A stretch of DNA of 64,000 bases from a virus. This document shows, piece by piece, positions 22,654-58,861 of this stretch (positions are counted from its first letter, which is position 1; each line of letters begins with the position of its first letter). The notes below the pieces were generated by a model. It was not told where the DNA came from. It was given only the letters and a program-made list of their open reading frames with translations, and searched no databases. The stretch covers positions 1 through 64,000 of the IMG/VR virus record IMGVR_UViG_3300025127_000001; one strand, given 5' to 3'. Position numbers and translations under genes: made by a program.

Positions 22654-25600
22654 ATGGAAGAGCTAGAAGTTATTGTACAACGTATGATTGACGCTGGAGA
22701 ACCTGAAGAAAATATTAAACTAGTAATAGAAGAATATAGTAGAAGACAGGGAAAGCTAGCAGGTGTTGCGGAGACGGATGCAACTGTAGCACCGGAGCCA
22801 ATAGCATCCGAGAGTACGGGATCAAACTTGGAAGATGGTTCTTTGGATTTAGATATAAAAGATAGATCTATACCTAAAACTCCTCAAGGTGAATTAGTTT
22901 ATGGTGATCAAAGAAGTTTTGATCAACAGATTATTGATTTCCAAAAGAACTATAATGACGCTATATTAGGTCAAGGTAAATATTCTTTTTTAGCTGATAA
23001 ACCTAAAGCAGATAGATTACTTTTTGCTGATAAAATGGTTTCTAAACCTAGATACTTTAGCTCTGTTTATAACAAGTCTAAAGACAAGTATGAGGTTAAG
23101 CCAAGTAAAGGTATGTATGATAGAATATCTAGTTACTTACCTGATGACTTTAATTTATACGATACACCTGAGCAATTTAATCAAGCGTTAGAAGATGGTA
23201 GAGCTCAAGCTCTACAACAAGATCCTATTGTAACTCAAATGTTAGAATCAAGATCTGCTTTGATGTCTGACGATTATAAAGAGTGGGAAGCTAACAAACG
23301 TAATGAATGGGATTTAACTACAGAAGAAGGTGTTATAGCTGCTAATAAAGAAGCTAATGAATGGTTTTTAAAAAATATAGTTGAACCTGTAGAAAACTCT
23401 CAAACATTTAAAAGAGTGTTTAACGAGTACACAGACGTTACTGAAGCTATAATGGGTGAAAGACATGTGGGTTATGGTAGAAGTAAAGATCCGTTTTTAA
23501 GCAAAGACCCTAGTTCTTTACGTGAAGGCTGGAGGAAAGGTTGGAAACAATTTGGTTTAGGTTTTGAGAAAGCTGGTTTAAGTGCTGAGCATGGCGCGCT
23601 AGAAGATTATCTTGTAGAATTAAACGGCTTGCTAGATAAAGATCCAAATGAAGAAGTAAGAGTTAAACAAAAAGCTTCTATGCCTGCAAGTGCTTATGGT
23701 GCTGTATCAATAAAACCAGATAGAAGACTTACTGCTGAGGAAAGATCTAAAGAGTTGATAGATCTTATTCTACAAACACAAGATAATATTAAGGGTAAAG
23801 TAAAAAACATAGCAGGTAAAGAAGCTGAATTAGGTTTATATAGAGCACCTGATTATGATGATGGTATTAGTTTAGAAGACATACTTTTAACAACAGGTGA
23901 AGCAGGTTCTAGTTTAGTTGTTGTTGGTGGATCAGCTGCGCTAAGTCCATTTACTGGAGGAGCTAGTGGTGTGCTTGGTTTAACAGCTATGTTTGGTAGT
24001 ATATATGGTCAGAACTATTATGATACTATATTACAAGGTTTAAAGGAAGACGGTATAGATGCTTCAAACCCTGAATTTGATAAACTAGTTGCTGAAGCTA
24101 TTAGTGAAGGTAAATATGCGAATAGAGCTGAAGTCGCTGGGTTTGCAGCTGTAGAAACTGGACTAGAAAGACTTGGTGCAGCTCCGCTTGTAAAAAACTT
24201 TATTAAGTCTATAGGACTTGGAACGTTAAACAAGAAAACATCTGCATCGTTATTTAGAAACCAATGGAAACAGTTTGCTAAAAACGCTCCACAAAACGTT
24301 AGAGCTGTTGGTACATCTGGTTTAAGAGAAGCTGGAACTGAAGCTGGTCAAGCTGGTGTATCTCAATTAAGTAAAGGTATACAGTTAGCAGATGATTTTG
24401 AAAACATAACTGCTACAAGTTATTTTGATCCAGCTGAAATAAGAGATAATGCTATAGCTGGTGGTATAGTTGGTGTTGTTACTCTTGGCGGTGGTAAGGT
24501 TGCTGGTCAAGCAACTATTGAATCTAGACAGTTATATAGAACTGCAGCAACAAGATTTAATTCAAGAGACGCAGAAAGTATTAAAATAGTAGAAGCTTAT
24601 TTTAAAAATCAAGAAAACAATTTAAAAGGAGATCTTGCTGCTAATAAAATAAATCAAGATCAATACGATAATCAAATGCAAGAGCTATCTAACGCTCGTA
24701 ATGCTGGTTACAATATACCTTCTAACTTTAGTATTGAAAACAAAGAAAGATCTTTTGATCTTATAATGGAACGAAACGGTTTAAACAAACAGCTTAAACA
24801 ACAAGACGATGCGCTTGCTCAACCTATAAAAGATCGTATAAAAGAAATAAATACAGAGCTTGCTGAGATAGGTAAGTCAGAGTTTAGTACACAAGTTATT
24901 GGTGGTGCTACTAAAATATCTAAAGCTCTTGATGTTCCTATAGAATATTTTAAAGATGACGCAGCTGTAACAAATAAGTTAAATGAACTTGAACAACAAG
25001 GTTATAATGTTGGTGATAAAAAAAATACTAACTTTGGTACTATTGTAGAAAATAGTGATGGTGATAAATTTATATTAATAAATCAAGCTAGAAACGAAGG
25101 TAAAGCTACAACAGAAGCTCATGAAGTTCTGCATGCTATATTATCACAAACAATAGGAACAGATGCAGAGCTTGCTAAAAAAATTGGTACATCGTTATTA
25201 AATGAGCTGACTACAAATAGTAAGATATTAGATTTAACAGATAACTTTGCTACACGTTTAGCTGGTTATGATTTAGAAAATAACCCACAAAACTTTGAAG
25301 AAGTATTAACACTGCTTAGCGAGGAGATGCTTGAAGGCAGAATTGTTTACAATGAAAGTGTTATGGAACGTATAGGTAGAATATTATCCGAAGCTTTTGC
25401 TAAGCTAACAGGTAAACCTATTACGTTTGAAAACGGTAAAGATGTATTTAACTTTGTAAGAGATTATAACAAAAGTGTTATAAAGGGTGAATTAACTGGC
25501 AGACAAAAAGCAGCCGCGGTAGAAGGTATACAAGTTGGAGATATTGATAGTGATGGTACAAGAGGACCATTAGCTTCTGGTACTGTAGTAGAAACAATTA

Positions 25601-28600
25601 ACAATATAATACCTGAAACTATAACTACAAAAGATCAGTTTCAGTCTGACCCAAGAGTTTTTGGAGATGCGTTTAAAGCTACAGAAAAAGGTGGTGTAAT
25701 ATACAACTATGTTAATTCAAGGTCTAGTAGTAAAGAGCAAGCTGATGGTACATTAAGAAGTATACAGGAAAGGTTATTAAACTACGACCCAGCAACAGGT
25801 AAATCATTTGCTGAATTTATTTTTTCTAACACTAACTTCGCTAGATTAGACGCTAACAAAGCTTTATTTAAAGAAAGCCAAAGACAAAGAACAGAAGGTA
25901 CTAGCATAGACAGTGAACAAGCTAGACAAGTTGTAGATCCATCGACAGTATCAGGACCAGCGGTTGATGTGACTGTAGACGAAAAGGTTACAACTAAAAT
26001 TGATCCATTAAGCTTTGAAAAAGTTACACCAGAAAAGCAAACTAAGATTAAAAATATAGTTGATATTAAGTCAGAGGACGTATCTAAGATCACACCTAAG
26101 GAACTTAATAATAGATACGCTGGTAAAGTTGCAGAAGTAATATTTGAAGTTCCTGAAACTAAAATTACCGACGCAAAGAAAAACTTAACTTACGCTAAAA
26201 AAATAGTAAAAGGAGTACAAGAAAAGTCTGAAGCTGGTAATATACAAGAGTTTTTTAGAGTTGGTCAAAACATGAAAAACTTTATTAAGATATTACCTGA
26301 GTTTAATGTAGCGCAAAATGAGGGTGATATATCTGATGTGGGTATTGAAGGTGAGAGTATAGCTGTAGACCCAACTGTTAAAGGTGTTTCTGTAGGTATT
26401 AACAATAGGTTGTTAAATTATTTCTACGAAGACTTTGTAGATCCAACAGGTGCTATTACTACACCAGGTGGAAGGAGTAAAGGTTTAACTAGTCAAACAA
26501 AAGTTAAAAGATTAAAGCCTGAGTTTAGAAATCCTACACAAGAAGTTATAGATCAGGTTAAAGTAGATATAGGTATTACACCTCGTGGAGAGCTTAATCA
26601 ATATGACAGAAGTATAGGTCAGATGTTAAAGGGAATGGCGAAACTTCAGGCGCAAAATACTGTAAGCAGGGCGGCCCGCCAAAAAGTAAAAGCACTTCCT
26701 GGTATTGAGCAAACGAAAAAACGCCAAACCGTGGCTAACATTACTAGTACAAAATCTAGAATTATGGCCTCACAAGTGTTTGAAGAAACACTTAATGACC
26801 TACAAAAAAGTGATGTAGCTACAGAATATGATGCTGCTAGAAATAATAAGATATGGAAGCGTATAGCTAAAGATGTGGGTGTAGATTTTATTGAAGCAAC
26901 TAACGAAGCTGATAGAGTTAAGTTCAAAGCTTTTGTATTAGAGAAATTACCTAAATATCTACCACAAGCTTTCTTTACACCAGGCACTTTTGCTGGCGCC
27001 GGTAAGTCTGGTTATAAAAGAAACTTTTTCTTTTTAAGTAAAGATGAATTAACAGACTTAATACGAGGAGTAGAGTTTGCAAAAGAAAACAAAGCTATTA
27101 CGGCCGCTGTTACTAAAACCAATATTACCACTGGCACGGGTAAAAATAGAAAAGTATCTAACGTCGCTATGCGTAGGTTTGAAGATGGTACTATAGCTAA
27201 AGAAAATAAATTAAAACAAAAAGGTTTAGAAGATATATTTTTAGCTCTTGAAAAGATGATGAAAGATGATAAGTCTACTATACCATTTGTTATATCATTA
27301 CTTAGTAGCACTAGTCAATATCAAGGGCATTTCATGAGAGCAGCATCACCATGGACCTTTATATCTAAAGATATAGAAAACGATGCTATTGTAGAAGAAC
27401 ACGTGTTACCTGCTAGTCTAGTTTCTAAGTATTTGTTTGCATCGGCATTAGAAGGTAAGATTAAAAAGAATTATCCTGATGTAAAGAAAAATTATTTTCA
27501 AGGTATACTGTCTGATACAAACGATAAGAAGTTAAAACTAAGAGGCGAATTTAATTATCAAAGTATGCCGCCTGCTGGTTGGCAGATGTCAGATAATATA
27601 TGGGCTAGATATTTTAATACCAATGTTGGTAATAATAATTTCGGTATAAGTCCTAGTGATATTGTTTTAATAAATAAAAAGACAATAGCTCAAGAACTAA
27701 ACATAGATCAATACGGTAACACAGTACCTAGAACATTTGCATCTCAACAAGAAAAAGCTTCTGAAAAAGATAACAAGATATTAGCTAAATCTATAAGACC
27801 AGTAAAAGCTAGTAAGTCTTTACCTACAAACTTATCGTTAAGTAAATTAGTAGACGAAGCTTTAAACAAAGCTAGAGATCCTAGAGCTTCTGAAAAAGGT
27901 ATTAGTGTATTTGATTTTGATGATACTGTAGCTACAAGTAAAAGTATGGTTATAGTTAATATGCCTAACGGTAATACTAAAAAAATTACTCCAGCTGAGT
28001 TTGCAAAACAACACAGCACACTAGAAGGGCAAGGGGCTAAGTTTGATTTTAGTGAGTTTAATAAAGTTGTTGATGGGAAGCCTGGGCCATTAGCTGCTAA
28101 AATGGAAAAAGCAATTAATAAGTTTGGAAACAAAGACGTATTTATACTTACAGCTAGACCACAAGAATCAGCTCAAGCTATATATGATTTTTTAAAAGGT
28201 ATAGGTTTAGAAATACCACTAGGTAATATAACAGGTTTGGCAGACGGAACACCACAAGCAAAGGCTAGATGGATAGTAGGTAAAGCAGCTGAAGGTTACA
28301 ATGACTTTTATTTTGCTGACGATGTATATAAAAATGTTAAAGCTGTACAAGACGCATTAAGTGTATTAGATGTTAAATCTAAAATAAGACAAGCTAGAAT
28401 ATTGGCAAGTAAAGATCTTGATAAAGACTTTAACGACATTATAGAAAACAAAACAGGTATTGCTTCTGAAAAAACTTATGGTCAAGTTAAAGGTGAAGTT
28501 GCTGGTAAAGATAAAGGTAGGTTTAATATATTTGTTCCACCGTCAGCTGAAGATTTCGTAGGTTTATTATACGCTACGTTAGGTAAAGGTAAAGTTGGTG

Positions 28601-30408
28601 ATTCACAGATGGCTTGGTACAAAGCTAATTTATTAGACCCATATGCTAGAGCTATGACTAATATATCTCGTGCTAGACGAGCAATGTTTGAAGATTACAA
28701 AGCATTAAAGAAACAAATAAAGATTAAACCAAAAGATCTTAAAAAGAAAGTACCAGGTGAACCATTTACACGCGAGCAAGCTGTAAGAGTTTATATATGG
28801 AACCAACAAGGTATGGAAGTTCCTGGTATAAGTAAGGCAGATAATAAAGATTTAGTTGACTTTGTTAATAAAAACGAAACACTAAAAACATTTGCTGACC
28901 AATTAATAGGTATGCAAAAAGGTACAGAGTATGCTGCGCCTAAAGTAGGTTGGCCAGCTGGTACTATAACAACTGATTTATTAAACACTATAGGTACTGT
29001 TAAAAGATCTTTGTATCTACAACAATGGCAGGAAAATGCTGATATAATATTTTCTGAAAAGAATATGAATAAGCTTGAAGCTGCGTTTGGTAAACCATAT
29101 AGAAAAGCTTTAGAAGGTATGCTAGCTCGTATGAAGAGTGGTCGTAATAGAAGCTTTGATGGTGATACAATGACTGGTAAATTTACAGACTGGTTAACAG
29201 GTCAAATCGGTACAATCATGTTCTTTAATACTAGATCAGCTTTACTACAGTTAATATCATCTGCTAACTTTGTAAACTTTACAGACAATAATATATACAA
29301 CGCTGCTAAAGTGTATGCTAATCAACCTCAGTATTGGAAAGATGTAATGATGTTAATGAACTCAGACTTCTTAGTTGAAAGACGTAGTGGTTTAAGGTTT
29401 AACGTTAATGAGTCTGATATTGCTGACATGGCTAAGCAAGCTGGATACAGAGGTGTTGTATCTAAGTTGTTACAATTTGGTTTCTTACCAACACAAATAG
29501 CTGATAGTTTAGCTATCGCAACAGGTGGCGCTACTCTTTATAGAAATAGAATTAATACATACAAGAAACAAGGTATGGATCAGAAAGCTGCAGAAGAAAA
29601 AGCTTTTCAAGATTTTAGAGAAATAGCTGAAGAAGCTCAGCAGTCTAGTAGACCTGATAGAATATCCGCACAACAAGCTGGACCATTAGGTAGAATAATA
29701 TTAGCATTTGGTAACACACCTATGCAGTATATGAGGTTAATTAAAAAAGCCGCGTCTGATATTAAAAATGGTAGAGGTGATTTTAAAACAAATGCTTCTA
29801 AAATAGTTTACTACATGCTAGTTCAAAACTTAATATTCAACGCCCTGCAACAAGCTATATTTGCTGTAGCATTTGGTGACATCGAAGAGGAAGATGAAAA
29901 TAGTAAGTATGTAAACATAGCTAATGGTATGGCGGACTCATTATTAAGAGGTATGGGTATTGGTGGAGCTATTGTTTCTATAGGAAAAAATGTAGGTAAA
30001 AGAATATACGACGAAAGCCAAAAGAAAAATCCTAAGTTTGAAAAGATAGGTTATGAAGTTGCTAAGTTATCACCTCCATTATCAGCTAAGCTTTCAAGAA
30101 TAAATCAAGCAGCAAGATCGTACCAATGGGATAAAGATAAAATGATGAGTGAAGGATTGTCGCTTGAAAACCCTGCGTACTTAGCAGGAGCAAATATTAT
30201 TGCAGCTACTACAAACATACCATTAGATAGAGCAATAAAGAAAACAAACAATGTTGTACAAGCTACAACTCAAGACTTAGAAACCTGGGAAAGGTTTGCA
30301 TTGCTAGGTGGTTGGCAAGACTGGGAACTAGGTATTGAAGACGAAGAAAAAAAGAAAACAAAAAAGAAAAAATCATCAAATAAAAAACGTAGATTCGTAA
30401 TAGATTAA
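22654..30408 (+). CDS. Giant polyvalent internal virion protein with HExxH and HAD-like sites
   Basis: The 2584-residue protein is the largest gene. A hydrophobic Gly-rich stretch lies at about 410-455. A HEVLH zinc-protease motif is at residues 823-827 (codons from 25120), with an acidic FEEVLTLLSEEM downstream as a possible third ligand. A HAD-type phosphatase signature is spread over DFDDT (1754-1758), ILTARP (1831-1836) and FADD (1887-1890). The last 700 residues, with helical segments such as FNTRSALLQLISSANFVNF and MLVQNLIFNALQQAIFAVAF, resemble large polyvalent protein-associated domains. The tail is Lys-rich. Together with its position this suggests an ejected protein carrying several enzymes into the cell. 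Confidence 0.75.
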   Translation: MEELEVIVQRMIDAGEPEENIKLVIEEYSRRQGKLAGVAETDATVAPEPIASESTGSNLEDGSLDLDIKDRSIPKTPQGELVYGDQRSFDQQIIDFQKNYNDAILGQGKYSFLADKPKADRLLFADKMVSKPRYFSSVYNKSKDKYEVKPSKGMYDRISSYLPDDFNLYDTPEQFNQALEDGRAQALQQDPIVTQMLESRSALMSDDYKEWEANKRNEWDLTTEEGVIAANKEANEWFLKNIVEPVENSQTFKRVFNEYTDVTEAIMGERHVGYGRSKDPFLSKDPSSLREGWRKGWKQFGLGFEKAGLSAEHGALEDYLVELNGLLDKDPNEEVRVKQKASMPASAYGAVSIKPDRRLTAEERSKELIDLILQTQDNIKGKVKNIAGKEAELGLYRAPDYDDGISLEDILLTTGEAGSSLVVVGGSAALSPFTGGASGVLGLTAMFGSIYGQNYYDTILQGLKEDGIDASNPEFDKLVAEAISEGKYANRAEVAGFAAVETGLERLGAAPLVKNFIKSIGLGTLNKKTSASLFRNQWKQFAKNAPQNVRAVGTSGLREAGTEAGQAGVSQLSKGIQLADDFENITATSYFDPAEIRDNAIAGGIVGVVTLGGGKVAGQATIESRQLYRTAATRFNSRDAESIKIVEAYFKNQENNLKGDLAANKINQDQYDNQMQELSNARNAGYNIPSNFSIENKERSFDLIMERNGLNKQLKQQDDALAQPIKDRIKEINTELAEIGKSEFSTQVIGGATKISKALDVPIEYFKDDAAVTNKLNELEQQGYNVGDKKNTNFGTIVENSDGDKFILINQARNEGKATTEAHEVLHAILSQTIGTDAELAKKIGTSLLNELTTNSKILDLTDNFATRLAGYDLENNPQNFEEVLTLLSEEMLEGRIVYNESVMERIGRILSEAFAKLTGKPITFENGKDVFNFVRDYNKSVIKGELTGRQKAAAVEGIQVGDIDSDGTRGPLASGTVVETINNIIPETITTKDQFQSDPRVFGDAFKATEKGGVIYNYVNSRSSSKEQADGTLRSIQERLLNYDPATGKSFAEFIFSNTNFARLDANKALFKESQRQRTEGTSIDSEQARQVVDPSTVSGPAVDVTVDEKVTTKIDPLSFEKVTPEKQTKIKNIVDIKSEDVSKITPKELNNRYAGKVAEVIFEVPETKITDAKKNLTYAKKIVKGVQEKSEAGNIQEFFRVGQNMKNFIKILPEFNVAQNEGDISDVGIEGESIAVDPTVKGVSVGINNRLLNYFYEDFVDPTGAITTPGGRSKGLTSQTKVKRLKPEFRNPTQEVIDQVKVDIGITPRGELNQYDRSIGQMLKGMAKLQAQNTVSRAARQKVKALPGIEQTKKRQTVANITSTKSRIMASQVFEETLNDLQKSDVATEYDAARNNKIWKRIAKDVGVDFIEATNEADRVKFKAFVLEKLPKYLPQAFFTPGTFAGAGKSGYKRNFFFLSKDELTDLIRGVEFAKENKAITAAVTKTNITTGTGKNRKVSNVAMRRFEDGTIAKENKLKQKGLEDIFLALEKMMKDDKSTIPFVISLLSSTSQYQGHFMRAASPWTFISKDIENDAIVEEHVLPASLVSKYLFASALEGKIKKNYPDVKKNYFQGILSDTNDKKLKLRGEFNYQSMPPAGWQMSDNIWARYFNTNVGNNNFGISPSDIVLINKKTIAQELNIDQYGNTVPRTFASQQEKASEKDNKILAKSIRPVKASKSLPTNLSLSKLVDEALNKARDPRASEKGISVFDFDDTVATSKSMVIVNMPNGNTKKITPAEFAKQHSTLEGQGAKFDFSEFNKVVDGKPGPLAAKMEKAINKFGNKDVFILTARPQESAQAIYDFLKGIGLEIPLGNITGLADGTPQAKARWIVGKAAEGYNDFYFADDVYKNVKAVQDALSVLDVKSKIRQARILASKDLDKDFNDIIENKTGIASEKTYGQVKGEVAGKDKGRFNIFVPPSAEDFVGLLYATLGKGKVGDSQMAWYKANLLDPYARAMTNISRARRAMFEDYKALKKQIKIKPKDLKKKVPGEPFTREQAVRVYIWNQQGMEVPGISKADNKDLVDFVNKNETLKTFADQLIGMQKGTEYAAPKVGWPAGTITTDLLNTIGTVKRSLYLQQWQENADIIFSEKNMNKLEAAFGKPYRKALEGMLARMKSGRNRSFDGDTMTGKFTDWLTGQIGTIMFFNTRSALLQLISSANFVNFTDNNIYNAAKVYANQPQYWKDVMMLMNSDFLVERRSGLRFNVNESDIADMAKQAGYRGVVSKLLQFGFLPTQIADSLAIATGGATLYRNRINTYKKQGMDQKAAEEKAFQDFREIAEEAQQSSRPDRISAQQAGPLGRIILAFGNTPMQYMRLIKKAASDIKNGRGDFKTNASKIVYYMLVQNLIFNALQQAIFAVAFGDIEEEDENSKYVNIANGMADSLLRGMGIGGAIVSIGKNVGKRIYDESQKKNPKFEKIGYEVAKLSPPLSAKLSRINQAARSYQWDKDKMMSEGLSLENPAYLAGANIIAATTNIPLDRAIKKTNNVVQATTQDLETWERFALLGGWQDWELGIEDEEKKKTKKKKSSNKKRRFVID

Positions 30409-40417: not shown

Positions 40418-41143
40418 TTAAAGGGTTTTGTTAATAAAATATTGTGAAGCATCAAAGTCTTTTGTTTTGTAAAATAACTCATAAGCTTCTGTCGCCTTAC
40501 GTACTTTGTCAAGCCCACGCTCTAAAAAGTCTGACGAACAATCAAACAAGCCTATTTGATGAGTGTTTTTATCTATAACAATAAATAACATTTCGTAACC
40601 AAATAGTTTGTTATAAATGTATGCTTGACTGTCGTAATTATATTTCCAGGCTGATCTTGAAAAAGCCATTATGTCATTAGTAGTTTTTAAATCAATTACT
40701 AATTTTTCATCATGGTTAATAATATCAGCTTTGCCTTTCCACATATTACCCTCAAGCTTTGTTACGCCAGGTTGTTCATATTCTACGTTGTTACCACGAA
40801 TAAGATCTTTACATATTTTATTATTTAATATCTTATCTGACATAACATCTATCATGTCAACTTCGTGTTGTAACAAGCATAGCTCGCCGCCTGACATCTC
40901 TTTATAAGCCTTCGTGTTCCTAGTCGATGAAGGTATTACTAGGTATTTCTTCAACTTATCTGGTTCAAGAATAGCTGTGTGAAAATATCCACCAACTAAG
41001 AACGCTGCTGAAGGCTTACTTGGTTTCCCAAGCAATAAAGGATTTTTTAGTAACGTACTGATGTCAGAATTACTAAGATACTTCTTACCGAACTCACCGT
41101 AGTAATGTTTGTCATCACGTAGTTTTTCTATTATTTTATCCAT
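40418..41143 (-). CDS. RecE/RecB-like PD-(D/E)xK exonuclease
   Basis: A 241-residue nuclease of the phage-type exonuclease VIII/DUF3799 class. The motifs are GGYFHTAILEP near 51-61, WKGKADII followed by VIDLKTT (the D...D-x-K core), and YNYDSQAYIY (the Q/Y helix). It probably resects DNA ends so that the ERF annealing protein encoded next can bind. The two genes overlap by eight bases, an arrangement typical of a two-component recombinase. Confidence 0.8.
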   Translation of the reverse strand: MDKIIEKLRDDKHYYGEFGKKYLSNSDISTLLKNPLLLGKPSKPSAAFLVGGYFHTAILEPDKLKKYLVIPSSTRNTKAYKEMSGGELCLLQHEVDMIDVMSDKILNNKICKDLIRGNNVEYEQPGVTKLEGNMWKGKADIINHDEKLVIDLKTTNDIMAFSRSAWKYNYDSQAYIYNKLFGYEMLFIVIDKNTHQIGLFDCSSDFLERGLDKVRKATEAYELFYKTKDFDASQYFINKTL

Positions 41144-45962: not shown

Positions 45963-45982
45963 AATTATTAATTTAAAGTTAG

Positions 45983-46056
45983 TTGCGGGAGTAGGATTCG
46001 AACCTACGACCTCAAGGTTATGAGCCTTGCGAGCTGACCAACTGCTCTATCCCGCT
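45983..46056 (-). tRNA. tRNA-Met (CAT), initiator-like
   Basis: A full cloverleaf can be drawn on the minus strand. The acceptor stem is six good pairs plus a mismatched first pair (A1 opposite A72). The D-stem is GAGC/GCTC with A11-T24, the anticodon stem CAAGG/CCTTG around CTCATAA (anticodon CAT) and the T-arm GTAGG-TTCGAAT-CCTAC. The unpaired 1-72 position and A11-T24 are hallmarks of bacterial initiator tRNA. The anticodon stem has AGG/CCT next to the loop instead of three G-C pairs. CCA is not encoded (CTA follows). Confidence 0.9.
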
Positions 46057-46736: not shown

Positions 46737-46966
46737 TTTGAAATTATATTATAGCCAAACAGATAACTGTGAGGGCTTAGTTCTGAATTATTTAAGTTAG
46801 AGTATGTGATTATGTCTGATAAATCTTGTACAGTCAAGTCTGACCACATAGTTTTAGACATAAGATTATACTTTAATCTTTTAGCTGTGCTGTATTTTTT
46901 AGCACTGTCTTGCAATGAAGTTTTTACATTTGGTAAAAGCTCATCATAAATAGTTTTAATTGCCAT
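46733..46966 (-). CDS. Hypothetical protein
   Basis: A 77-residue protein, Ser/Asn/Leu-rich, with no known motif. It is preceded by a copy of the conserved promoter-like motif 13-35 bases upstream, so it starts a transcript that runs toward the tRNA. Confidence 0.6.
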   Translation of the reverse strand: MAIKTIYDELLPNVKTSLQDSAKKYSTAKRLKYNLMSKTMWSDLTVQDLSDIITYSNLNNSELSPHSYLFGYNIISK

Positions 46967-46974
46967 AGTTTTTA

Positions 46975-47008
46975 TTTTATTATCGATTTTTATTTGTATT
47001 AGATTTGT
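46975..47008 (-). promoter_or_regulatory. Promoter-like motif, copy 5
   Basis: On the minus strand ACAAA, TAC and TCGATAATA occur at the same relative positions (1, 11 and 23) as in the other copies. It lies just upstream of the gene starting at 46966 and overlaps the end of the preceding gene. Confidence 0.65.
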
Positions 47009-47375
47009 AATTTCTTAAGTAATATTCAACAATAAATACTAGTCTAGTCATTTCTTCGTATATAAGAGTTCTAGCCCAAGCAGTACCTTTTCTTACATAA
47101 GTTTCACCTGTGTCTCTATCTAACCACATCCATCTGTCTTCTCTTTGATACTTAGGATTTAGTTGATAAATTCTGTCACTGCTATTACATCTACGAACGT
47201 AACCGCTTGAATATGAGCCAAGTAGCTCACCACCGGGACAAAGAAATATTCTTGTACCGTTTTTAGCTTGTCTTTGAGTCGTGACCTCTTTGAGACCATA
47301 CTCAACAAGCATTCTTCTAGCATATGTATCACATAACATCTGCCGTTCTTGTTGCCAAGTGTAAGTGTTTTGCAT
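46980..47375 (-). CDS. Hypothetical protein
   Basis: A 131-residue, Arg/Tyr-rich protein. Middle part: FLCPGGELLGSYSSGYVRRC and WMWLDRDTGETYVRKG. No family recognised. It begins about 23 bases after the 3' end of the tRNA-like element, in the same orientation. Confidence 0.6.
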   Translation of the reverse strand: MQNTYTWQQERQMLCDTYARRMLVEYGLKEVTTQRQAKNGTRIFLCPGGELLGSYSSGYVRRCNSSDRIYQLNPKYQREDRWMWLDRDTGETYVRKGTAWARTLIYEEMTRLVFIVEYYLRNYKSNTNKNR

Positions 47376-47397
47376 TGTTTATTTATTTTAAGATTAG

Positions 47398-47477
47398 TGG
47401 ACGTGGCAGGATTCGAACCTGCGTTTGCTACTGGATGTCTCATAGAGATCACAGCTTGCACTAACCATTTCACGCCC
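47398..47477 (-). ncRNA. tRNA-like element with intact acceptor and T arms
   Basis: The ends form a seven-pair acceptor stem (GGGCGTG/CACGTCC, one wobble) with discriminator A and a perfect T-arm GCAGG-TTCGAAT-CCTGC. The D-arm cannot be drawn normally: no T8, no 5' D-stem strand. The best anticodon arm (GATCT-CTATGAG-ACATC) has one mismatch and would read ATG. The variable region would be 11 bases. It is either a degenerate tRNA or a tRNA-like RNA. It directly abuts the structured segment on its 5' side. Confidence 0.55.
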
Positions 47478-47481
47478 TTAT

Positions 47482-47641
47482 GAGAGGCACCAGTCTCGGA
47501 CCGGTACTAACTAGTATTATGCTTTATCCGAGCTTTTGACCAGTATGCCGCCGCCTCTCTGCCACAACGCCGGTCTGCCGACATCTTCCGCTAAGAAGCA
47601 TTTCTTATTGTGGCTATTATGTAGTCTGCCGCTAACAGCAG
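47482..47641 (-). ncRNA. Densely structured non-coding RNA candidate
   Basis: No ORF covers this GC-richer stretch. On the minus strand it can form: CTGCTG/CGGCAG (47626-47641), GCCACAA/TTGTGGC (47608-47614 with 47561-47567) enclosing AAGAA-ATGC-TTCTT (47593-47606) and GTCGG-CAGA-CCGGC (47569-47582), then GAGAGGC/GCCTCTC (47553-47559 with 47482-47488) enclosing ACCGGT-CCGAG-ACTGGT (47489-47505). The five-base loop CCGAG is complementary to CTCGG at 47528-47532, giving a possible pseudoknot. Six stems in 160 bases is unusual. It does not match a known RNA class that I recognise. Confidence 0.5.
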
Positions 47642-47651
47642 CACCTTCCAA

Positions 47652-47840
47652 CTACTTACGCCGCCAAGCACGGTGAACAGATGCGCTCACCTCTTGACTG
47701 ACGATTTGTATTGTATTGCCTGTTTTGTGCTCTATGATTGGAACGTATGAGTAAGTTTGCGTGGTTGAACAGTCAACACACGTCTTGTAACCTAAATCTA
47801 AACGCACTGGGTGCACAGTTTTTCCGCATCTACAATACAT
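47652..47840 (-). CDS. Small zinc-ribbon-like phage protein
   Basis: A 62-residue protein with C-x-C near the start (MYCRCGKTV) and C-x-x-C (YKTCVDCSTT) about 17 residues later, a probable zinc ribbon, followed by HKTGNTIQIV. I recall similar 'YC-CG ... GY-TC-ECST' phage proteins of unknown role. It may bind nucleic acid. A copy of the promoter-like motif lies just upstream, and the structured RNA segment begins about 10 bases after its stop. Confidence 0.65.
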   Translation of the reverse strand: MYCRCGKTVHPVRLDLGYKTCVDCSTTQTYSYVPIIEHKTGNTIQIVSQEVSASVHRAWRRK

Positions 47841-47852
47841 AGTTTGTTTTAT

Positions 47853-47885
47853 TTTATTATCGATTAGTGTTCGTATTATTTTTGT
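47853..47885 (-). promoter_or_regulatory. Promoter-like motif, copy 4
   Basis: Minus-strand ACAAA, TAC and TCGATAATA lie at the shared spacing. The gene at 47652-47840 begins about 16 bases downstream, followed by the structured RNA and tRNA-like element, which would share this transcript. Confidence 0.65.
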
Positions 47886-48061
47886 ATCAACTTGTTTATT
47901 GCTACATTAATAATATAAGCACAAGCTTCAGTGTATTCATCACCTTCTAACTCGCTTACAATAGTTCCATCAACCACCCAGTCAATAGAATCTTCAATTA
48001 ATTCATGTAAGTGATCCGCCATAGCGTCTGCTATCGAATCAAGTTCTTTCATTTTACTCAT
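47876..48061 (-). CDS. Hypothetical acidic helical protein
   Basis: A 61-residue helical protein (IADAMADHLHELIEDSIDWV). No family recognised. It overlaps the upstream gene by eight bases, and its end overlaps the next promoter motif. Confidence 0.55.
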   Translation of the reverse strand: MSKMKELDSIADAMADHLHELIEDSIDWVVDGTIVSELEGDEYTEACAYIINVAINKLIQK

Positions 48062-57304: not shown

Positions 57305-58861
57305 ATGTCAGACAAAATTGTCAAAAACCTTAACTTTGGTAACGATGCCAAAGAAAAGGTATTTAAAGGAATAGATAAACTCACTAAAGCTGTTAGCTCC
57401 ACATTAGGGGCTAGCGGCAAGTGTGTTATACTAGAAGATAATAATGGAAAACCCATTATAACAAAAGATGGTGTAACAGTCGCTGAATCTATAATATTAT
57501 TAGATCCAGTTGAAAACATGGGTGCTACATTATTGAAACAAGCGGCTAGACAAACAGTACAAGACGCTGGAGATGGTACAACAACAGCAACGTTATTGGC
57601 TCACTCTATACTTGAAGAAGCTCAACAAAACAATGGGGATCAAGTTAGAGATATTAAAATAGGTATTAATAATGGTGTGCAAAAAGTTGTTAAGTATTTA
57701 GAGAAAAACTCTATACCTGTAGAAGGTAAAATGATTGATCAAGTTGCTACAATATCTACAAACAACGATAAGAACTTAGGTGAACTTATTGGAAAAGCTT
57801 TTAAAGCTGTAGATGAAACAGGTGTAGTAATGATGGAACCAACCGACAATGGTGAAACATGTGTTGATATTGTTGACGGTGTACAGTATGATAAGGGATT
57901 ATTAAGCAATCACTTTATAACTAGTAAAGAAAAAAAGACTGCTGAACTAGAAAACCCTTATGTATTACTTATTGAATCAGAAGTAAATTCTATTAGAAGT
58001 ATACAGTCTGTTTTAGAGTTTGTAATTAAAAATAACAAACCTTTATTAATAATTGCAGACATGGAACAACCAGTTGTATCTGCGTTAGCAATGAATAAGA
58101 TTAAAGGTAATATAAAAGTAAACGTTATAAACGCTCCTACATATGGTGTAAATAAAAAAGATACACTAGATGACTTAGCAATGCTGACTGGAGCTACTAT
58201 TATAAACGAAGATCTTGGAGATACACTTGACTTAATTCAACCTGATTATTTAGGCACATGTATAAGATCTGTTACTAGTAACAATGAAACTATAATTCAA
58301 GTAGACACGCCTAGTGATGAAGTTAAAAGTATTGTTAAAGAAATTAAAAAGCAATTAAAAAAGACTAAAGCTCCAGGTGAAATAATAAGACTTGAAAAAA
58401 GACTAGCTAGATTATCAGCTAAAGTTGCAGTTGTTAAAGTTGGTGCTAGTTCAGAAGTAGAATTAAAAGAAAAACAAGATAGAGTCGAAGACGCTATCTG
58501 TGCTACTAAAGCCGCAATAAAAGAGGGAATTGTTTCAGGTGGAGGCATTGCGCTTCTAAACGCTTCGCAACAAATCAAACCAAAATCAACAGGTGAAAGT
58601 ATATTACTACAAGCTATTAAAAAACCGTTTGATTGTATACTAAAAAATGCTGGTATTGAAAACGACGTACCAATAGCTAAAGAAGGTTTTGGTATAAACG
58701 TGGTTACAGGAGATATGGTAAATATGATCGAATCTGGAATTATCGATCCGCTTTTAGTTACAAAAAGCGCCCTTAAAAACGCGGCTTCAGTAGCAACTAC
58801 TATATTATCTACAGATTGTGTAATCAATAATTTAAGATTAGATGAAAGCTGTAGGGTATAA
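57305..58861 (+). CDS. groEL: Phage-encoded GroEL chaperonin
   Basis: A 518-residue group I chaperonin. Visible motifs are TKDGVTVAESI, AGDGTTTATLLA (ATP-binding loop), the apical segment LLIIADMEQP and ATLTG-like LAMLTGATI, and RLARLSAKVAVVKVGASSEV with EKQDRVEDA (the ATPase Asp). It ends DESCRV and has no GGM tail. The peptide/GroES-binding region LLSNHF replaces LSPYF. It probably folds capsid or tail proteins, perhaps ones the host chaperonin cannot handle. The GroES gene overlaps its end by 20 bases. Confidence 0.95.
   Translation: MSDKIVKNLNFGNDAKEKVFKGIDKLTKAVSSTLGASGKCVILEDNNGKPIITKDGVTVAESIILLDPVENMGATLLKQAARQTVQDAGDGTTTATLLAHSILEEAQQNNGDQVRDIKIGINNGVQKVVKYLEKNSIPVEGKMIDQVATISTNNDKNLGELIGKAFKAVDETGVVMMEPTDNGETCVDIVDGVQYDKGLLSNHFITSKEKKTAELENPYVLLIESEVNSIRSIQSVLEFVIKNNKPLLIIADMEQPVVSALAMNKIKGNIKVNVINAPTYGVNKKDTLDDLAMLTGATIINEDLGDTLDLIQPDYLGTCIRSVTSNNETIIQVDTPSDEVKSIVKEIKKQLKKTKAPGEIIRLEKRLARLSAKVAVVKVGASSEVELKEKQDRVEDAICATKAAIKEGIVSGGGIALLNASQQIKPKSTGESILLQAIKKPFDCILKNAGIENDVPIAKEGFGINVVTGDMVNMIESGIIDPLLVTKSALKNAASVATTILSTDCVINNLRLDESCRV

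Follow-up and report, generated by a model that had tools for sequence, protein, structure and literature searches.

In tmRNA the third acceptor pair is G-U without exception, and it serves as the determinant for AlaRS (PMC3985003). A phage-borne reduced form of this RNA has been described in mycobacteriophage DS6A, which carries a TLD-only tmRNA; a molecule consisting of the TLD alone is a strong inhibitor of tmRNA and may act by titrating SmpB (PMC4131195). Among other structured phage RNAs, GOLLD and ROOL are encoded close to phage tRNA islands and assemble into cages (PMC12286853). Rad52-like recombinases, Erf included, act on short and diverged homology (PMC3945230). Here we describe a phage locus at which helical RNA modules are exchanged and nested in front of a tRNA-like domain of tmRNA type, referred to as TLS. 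In the open-licence literature we found no precedent for the nested exchange of whole helical modules at a non-coding RNA locus.

The window, that is, the whole stretch of DNA analysed, comprises 64,000 nt (positions 1 to 64,000) of a 64.5-kb virus record, IMGVR_UViG_3300025127_000001. Its terminase is nearest to that of a metagenomic phage (62%), followed by those of Flavobacterium and Cellulophaga podophages (about 45%). The window also encodes a GroEL chaperonin at 57305-58861 (PHROG 5725, E 4e-136) and, in the structural region, a 2584-aa reading frame at 22654-30408, possibly a virion-associated polyvalent protein. Positions 47482-47641 of the minus strand, flanked by a zinc-ribbon gene (62 aa) and a gene of 131 aa, had been described in a sequence-only reading as GC-rich, non-coding and foldable beyond chance, and all three properties were borne out. 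GC content is 0.51-0.53 in the segment, compared to about 0.26-0.40 in the surrounding DNA. Only short overlapping ORFs of 44-46 aa were found, and conservation as protein is absent in relatives because the make-up of the array changes wholesale; an overlooked protein gene was thus rejected, no frame being conserved. The MFE of the minus strand is -55.9 kcal/mol, whereas dinucleotide shuffles average -44.85 +/- 3.94 (z -2.80) and one in 200 of them folds as well; the wider array (47390-47654) has a z of -2.35. Since the site was chosen by eye from 64 kb, folding energy alone is weak evidence, and it is covariation that carries the case for a structured RNA. The array consists, in this order, of a D hairpin, a GCCACAA hairpin, the pseudoknot module Z and the TLS, each of which recurs elsewhere. 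The features are as follows:

47652..47840, minus strand: zinc-ribbon protein gene, 62 aa, directly upstream of the array
47621..47654, minus strand: module D hairpin (TAGTTGGAAGGTGCTGCTGTTAGCGGCAGACTA), beginning at the zinc-ribbon stop codon TAG; outer stem GTAGT/ACTAC
47561..47614, minus strand: hairpin module closed by GCCACAA/TTGTGGC, with two inner hairpins, from the MFE fold
47482..47559, minus strand: module Z, outer stem GAGAGGC/GCCTCTC around an H-type pseudoknot; 14 distinct homologues
47539..47543, minus strand: 5' strand of Z pseudoknot helix 1, CTGGT, pairing with ACCGG at 47501-47505
47527..47532, minus strand: 5' strand of Z pseudoknot helix 2, CTCGGA, pairing with TCCGAG at 47495-47500
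47398..47477, minus strand: TLS, a tmRNA-type tRNA-like domain; acceptor GGGCGTG/CACGTCC, discriminator A (47398)
47425..47460, minus strand: exchangeable P2 insert of the TLS (TGCAAGCTGTGATCTCTATGAGACATCCAGTAGCAA); 27-nt core shared with locus L186

The 24-nt core of module D is also present in five further contexts (L011, L015, L016, L027 and L139). Its outer stem varies with pairing retained, as in GTAGC/GCTAC of L016, and in L027 the whole module is nested within a Y module. The 7-bp GCCACAA/TTGTGGC stem, already proposed to enclose two hairpins, is present in the MFE fold; in L015 this hairpin is shorter, and an inner stem CTGG/CCAG replaces TCGG/CCGG. Module Z was found in 18 further contexts with varying inserts. 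Across its 14 homologues the covariation score is 0.381, compared to 0.166 +/- 0.021 in shuffled alignments and at most 0.128 in slid versions, and both sides are altered in 10 of 17 pairs. A pseudoknot between CCGAG and CTCGG had been drawn from the window alone, and across the 14 relatives both helices of this H-type pseudoknot covary: helix 1 occurs as CTGGT paired with ACCAG or ACCGG and as CAGGT/ACCTG, and helix 2 as CTCGGA/TCCGAG, CGCGGA/TCCGCG, GCGGA/TCCGC, GTGGA/TCCAC and GTAGA/TCTAC. The suggestion of a structured RNA of an unrecognised class stood in that no described family corresponds to the segment, but the segment is made of three modules of a recombining library rather than one class. 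At gathering thresholds Rfam found nothing in the window besides tRNA-Met, and a scan of 47000-48000 with E up to 10 returned, apart from tmRNA, chance snoRNA matches.

Relatives were collected by searching IMG/VR with the zinc-ribbon protein, which is conserved in at least 168 stretches, and 80 loci were fetched. The sample was widened by scanning for sequence patterns of two modules and of the TLS, an approach that enriches for the scanned modules, and 128 distinct downstream regions were taken from the collected loci. These sequences are metagenomic assemblies; the mosaic described below nevertheless recurs in many independent contigs and samples. Members of the zinc-ribbon family are 76-95% identical, with the last 33 residues nearly invariant. 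The protein had no match in PHROGs or Pfam and was not found among 50,697 phage records; its AlphaFold model has a pLDDT of 62.5 and was set aside. A PDB sequence search gave nothing convincing. Being near-invariant, yet without a family match, the zinc-ribbon protein merits functional study. Its pattern, CxC...CxxC followed by TYSYVPIIEHKTGNTIQIVSQEVSASVHRAWRRK, is nearly invariant in uncultured marine phages. In blastn searches against cultured phages the window array and a 2-kb stretch around another array were unmatched, and a 601-base query matched only short T-arm-like stretches with marginal E-values. Separately, AT-rich stretches with TTATTTTATTATCGATT (AATCGATAATAAAATAA on the minus strand) lie at 46964-47009 and 47852-47900 and recur before minus-strand genes; similar GATAATATAATAAATTAAA stretches precede genes in relatives, making this a candidate phage promoter or start-site motif.

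The DNA right after the zinc-ribbon stop codon is a mosaic of recurring blocks, while the flanking gene is conserved. With a dictionary of about 45 entries, whole modules or halves of modules, all defined and bounded by hand, 88 arrays parse into 79 distinct arrangements; the TLS is the last module in 65 of the 88 arrays. The unbiased part of the sample, which comes from the zinc-ribbon search alone, numbers 72 loci, of which 55 carry a TLS at a distance of 1 kb or less. Some arrays are without a TLS within that distance, and some hold two tRNA-like elements. Arrays ending in a TLS have a median length of 304 nt and a GC content of 0.44, and the shortest arrays measure 85 nt. For 48 arrays the mean folding z is -2.21, with 27 at -2 or below, compared to -0.64 for adjacent coding sequence of equal length, in which 4 of 46 reach that level. 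The sense strand folds more stably than the antisense strand in 45 of the 48, and G-U pairs are present in the covarying stems, which together fit an RNA transcribed from the zinc-ribbon strand.

This layout could mean that the TLS is a 3'-end signal (RNase P/RNase Z) for the zinc-ribbon transcript, with the modules forming a structured, stabilising and nuclease-resistant 3' UTR and charging being incidental. Such a role would suit arrays that open with the stop codon of the zinc-ribbon gene, a codon that is base-paired in 63 of 94 folds, that usually end with a TLS and that fold strongly throughout. It leaves unexplained the variety of modules, the presence of two tRNA-like elements in some arrays, and a fixed G3:U70 next to a pair 4:69 that covaries (see below), and we regard it as an improbable account, though the strongest of the rivals.

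Each module consists of a conserved core and stems, of which the outer ones vary in sequence while pairing is kept. The same core is met in several settings: K in five (in Y, Z, TLS and L, and free), G in five (P, B, Y, TLS, free), CG in five (ts, TLS, E, Y, free), P in three (TLS, L, free) and M in three (Y, TLS, free). The deepest nesting seen, three levels, is in the TLS P2 slot of L089 and L099, where A3 holds u and u holds gg. For the 52 distinct stem ends of the TLS shell the mean helix is 5.40 bp, compared to 2.80 +/- 0.16 when the 3' ends are permuted, and the Y shell behaves alike (5.48 bp against 3.07 +/- 0.21). The outer helix of core K averages 4.47 against 3.04 permuted, with 0 of 1000 permutations as good; the corresponding counts are 0/1000 for E, 1/1000 for W and 9/994 for P. 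In all these permutation tests the sequences share ancestry and kinship was ignored. The W core, for example, is closed by TACCACC/GGTGGTA, TTATCAC/TGATAA, ACCCGGCT/CCGGGT and CCGACTAC/TGGTCGG. Inner-helix tests were non-significant for the shells tm, V, P, K and E, in which insertion is at internal loops or the boundaries were misplaced. Outer-helix tests gave no information on the cores M, A3, C and GG, whose short patterns produced too many spurious hits. Since the ends of inserts stay complementary despite differing sequences, exchange respects RNA helices, which speaks for selection on RNA structure.

Exchange is also recent. Phages that are 95-99% identical in their flanking DNA carry different arrays; for example, L010 and L011 have flanks 98.6% and 95.0% identical, but K lies inside Z in the former and inside the TLS in the latter. 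Only flank identities were used here, as blastn coverage of arrays undercounts shared modules (it is zero for L085 and L152, which have their last element in common).

Nesting in loops, variable number and a location outside genes would also be expected if the modules were selfish hairpin insertion elements at a permissive site, like palindromic or double-hairpin elements. However, one core bears different complementary outer stems, as the K and W permutations above illustrate, and this variation between copies argues against constant element ends. Additionally, acceptor loops are replaced rather than split, no transposase or homing enzyme was matched among the proteins tested, and the Y pattern was not found in bacteria, searched as one genome for each of 84,980 species. 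We therefore give this explanation little credence.

The adjoining tRNA-like element noticed in the sequence-only reading proved to be joined to the structured RNA and to be of tmRNA type, not a tRNA. In the window it has a T-arm (GCAGG-TTCGAAT-CCTGC), G3 at 47475 and U70 at 47401, and is without an anticodon arm. ARAGORN does not call it as a tRNA; ARAGORN and the Rfam tRNA model alike find tRNA-Met as the only tRNA in the window. The core of its P2 insert is enclosed by a different outer stem in the TLS of L186. The Rfam tmRNA model (RF00023) matches it with E 8e-12 and with both model ends. SmpB binding by this copy is uncertain, because it reaches 34.0 bits where gathering requires 47 and because the D-region of tmRNA is longer than its own (AAATGGTTAG). 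The family has three main variants by acceptor, GGGCGTG, GGGGGTG and GGGAGTG, the second of which scores 53-65 bits, above gathering. Of 18 loci, 5 exceed gathering with the tmRNA model, in matches of about 82 nt that align all TLD positions. Of the 374 positions of the tmRNA model 304 are missing, and the resume codon and tag reading frame are absent. A PK1-PK4 pseudoknot region reached through P2 was not found, P2 closing on short hairpins or unrelated modules, and over the 128 arrays ARAGORN reported one doubtful tmRNA (L089) and no other. The first 21 nt of a Bacteroidetes tmRNA (L227, tag ANSNYALAA) are identical to those of the TLS of L039; when relocated tag pieces were sought by comparing the interior of Bacteroidetes tmRNA with the arrays, only head and tail matched convincingly. 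No anticodon arm with a 7-nt loop was found in the TLS, the insert sequence being unrelated in each variant, and no two-piece permuted order was seen, the 5' half preceding the 3' half in all aligned copies. Judged by alignment and pairing, the TLS is the tRNA-like domain of tmRNA without the mRNA-like domain.

Among 51 aligned TLSs the covariation score is 0.396 against 0.100 +/- 0.011 (0 of 500 shuffles as good), acceptor and T-stem cells pair in 100%, and each of the five P2 pairs varies on both sides. At 4:69 there is CG in 39, AU in 8 and GC in 4, whereas G3:U70 is present in 51 of 51, a set found with patterns that included position 3, mismatches allowed. In an independent search, which used only acceptor pairing, T-arm and GG in the D region as criteria, G:U stood at 3:70 in 106 of 132 non-tRNA hits, compared to 2 of 9 canonical tRNAs, and A73 in 114 of the 132. 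G3:U70 could be inherited and not selected. That the elements are decayed phage tRNA genes with chance folding might be suggested by the canonical tRNA-Met 1.4 kb away and by the tRNA-like acceptor and T-arm, but decay would break stems, which here pair throughout while P2 covaries, and the head is of tmRNA type and has no anticodon arm; this reading is already contradicted by covariation, and we attach almost no weight to it.

Further tRNA-like elements were seen at these loci. Module V (L018, L019, L021, L028 and L072), with ends GAACTAG or CAACTAG and CTAGTTA, is a second kind of tRNA-like element; it has G or C facing A at acceptor pair 1:72, a mismatch like that of initiator tRNA, and its interior takes inserts. 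The site that tRNA-Met occupies in the window (45982-46056) holds a second TLS in L016; in L012 it holds a very short tRNA-like element (GGACGTA...TACGTCC) of acceptor and T-arm with almost nothing between.

A candidate engine of module exchange is encoded in the same genome:

41136..41651, minus strand: ERF-family single-strand annealing recombinase (Pfam PF04404, E 5.8e-27)
40418-41143: PD-(D/E)XK protein DUF3799, adjoining the ERF recombinase

By analogy with other Rad52-like enzymes, ERF-type annealing may be a sufficient engine for the shuffling. We propose that the array RNA is probably co-transcribed with the zinc-ribbon gene and may be cut at the TLS by RNase P and RNase Z. Host AlaRS could then charge the TLS through the conserved G3:U70 and A73, and the charged, tag-less molecule would engage EF-Tu and SmpB and compete with host tmRNA, so that trans-translation would be damped during infection. 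By analogy, a charged TLD without a tag is expected to block the start of trans-translation; the charged TLS probably competes for SmpB, AlaRS or EF-Tu. The upstream and P2-slot modules may serve as swappable binding or stabilising domains. Their swapping between phages, which is seen in the arrays, would be carried out by relaxed annealing recombination with ERF as the presumed enzyme, and a swapped module would be retained only when the receiving helix closes.

We believe that the best explanation overall is a recursively assembled module RNA closed by a TLS that acts as a tmRNA mimic, with a probability of roughly 0.5, a compromise between its two parts. The anatomy of the locus, with its modular structure, nesting, covariation and tmRNA-type TLS with alanine identity elements, we hold to be highly probable, and the function as tmRNA mimic we put forward tentatively. 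A decoy role needs the TLS alone and leaves the upstream modules unexplained. For these, binding or decoy domains are favoured, because a fixed site that is diverse between conserved flanks looks like the product of an arms race. In its fullest form, which we likewise offer as a conjecture, the locus would be a phage-borne, recursively modular library of RNA domains, shuffled combinatorially, in which any one module could sit in the apical loops of a number of others. Selection would act on the RNA, since helices have to close. Most arrays would terminate in a tmRNA mimic that is charged with alanine, has no tag and disables ribosome rescue or some related function of the host. An arms race would drive diversification, as in an anti-defence island, but one made of RNA.

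If this is true, natural phages recombine and nest RNA domains at one locus as they do protein domains, and recombination is fast enough for near-identical genomes to differ. The arrays would form a natural catalogue of interchangeable junctions, pseudoknots and hairpins with covariation data, and would allow a tractable test of RNA decoy evolution in arms races. They would also imply possible RNA-based phage interference with trans-translation or other translation factors, and with the tag-less TLS the idea of tmRNA inhibition by mimicry, taken from DS6A, becomes testable on many natural variants.

In comparison with known systems, the TLS resembles tmRNA (ssrA, RF00023) in its acceptor with G3:U70 and A73, T-arm, stemless D-loop and P2 in place of the anticodon arm, and the head of the tm variant shares the 21-nt identity with Bacteroidetes tmRNA. 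It differs from tmRNA in lacking a tag frame and pseudoknot region, in measuring about 80 nt where inserts are short, in holding interchangeable inserts in P2 and in following an array of other modules. tmRNA proper was rejected for the absence of tag and pseudoknots, and tRNA, GOLLD, ROOL and OLE were likewise rejected; in 18 relatives Rfam found nothing but tRNA and tmRNA. The TLD-only tmRNA of DS6A (PMC4131195) is likewise phage-borne and reduced to little more than the TLD, but by its published description it is a single gene, whereas many variants, insert swapping and a module array are found here; taken alone, the TLS could be classed as a novel form of the TLD-only tmRNA of phages. Among phages with a full or two-piece tmRNA, the marine phage Melnitz (PMC9004378), for example, also has a tmRNA-derived gene; those tmRNAs are complete and tagged, unlike the present RNA without the mRNA-like domain. 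GOLLD and ROOL are, like the arrays, large structured phage RNAs near tRNAs, and ornate multi-domain RNA beside tRNA-Met might suggest that the array RNA is structural and, like them, builds a particle or scaffold, with modules as interchangeable ornament. Each of those has one recognisable architecture, however, whereas modules here are shuffled and nested, match neither them nor OLE in Rfam, have no core common to all arrays apart from the TLS, and form arrays down to 85 nt, and we consider such a role very unlikely. In manner of exchange the arrays resemble the mosaicism attributed to Rad52-like phage recombinases (PMC3945230), with exchange at short or diverged homology and an ERF gene present; unlike in gene mosaicism, the units exchanged are not genes but RNA helical domains nested inside each other.
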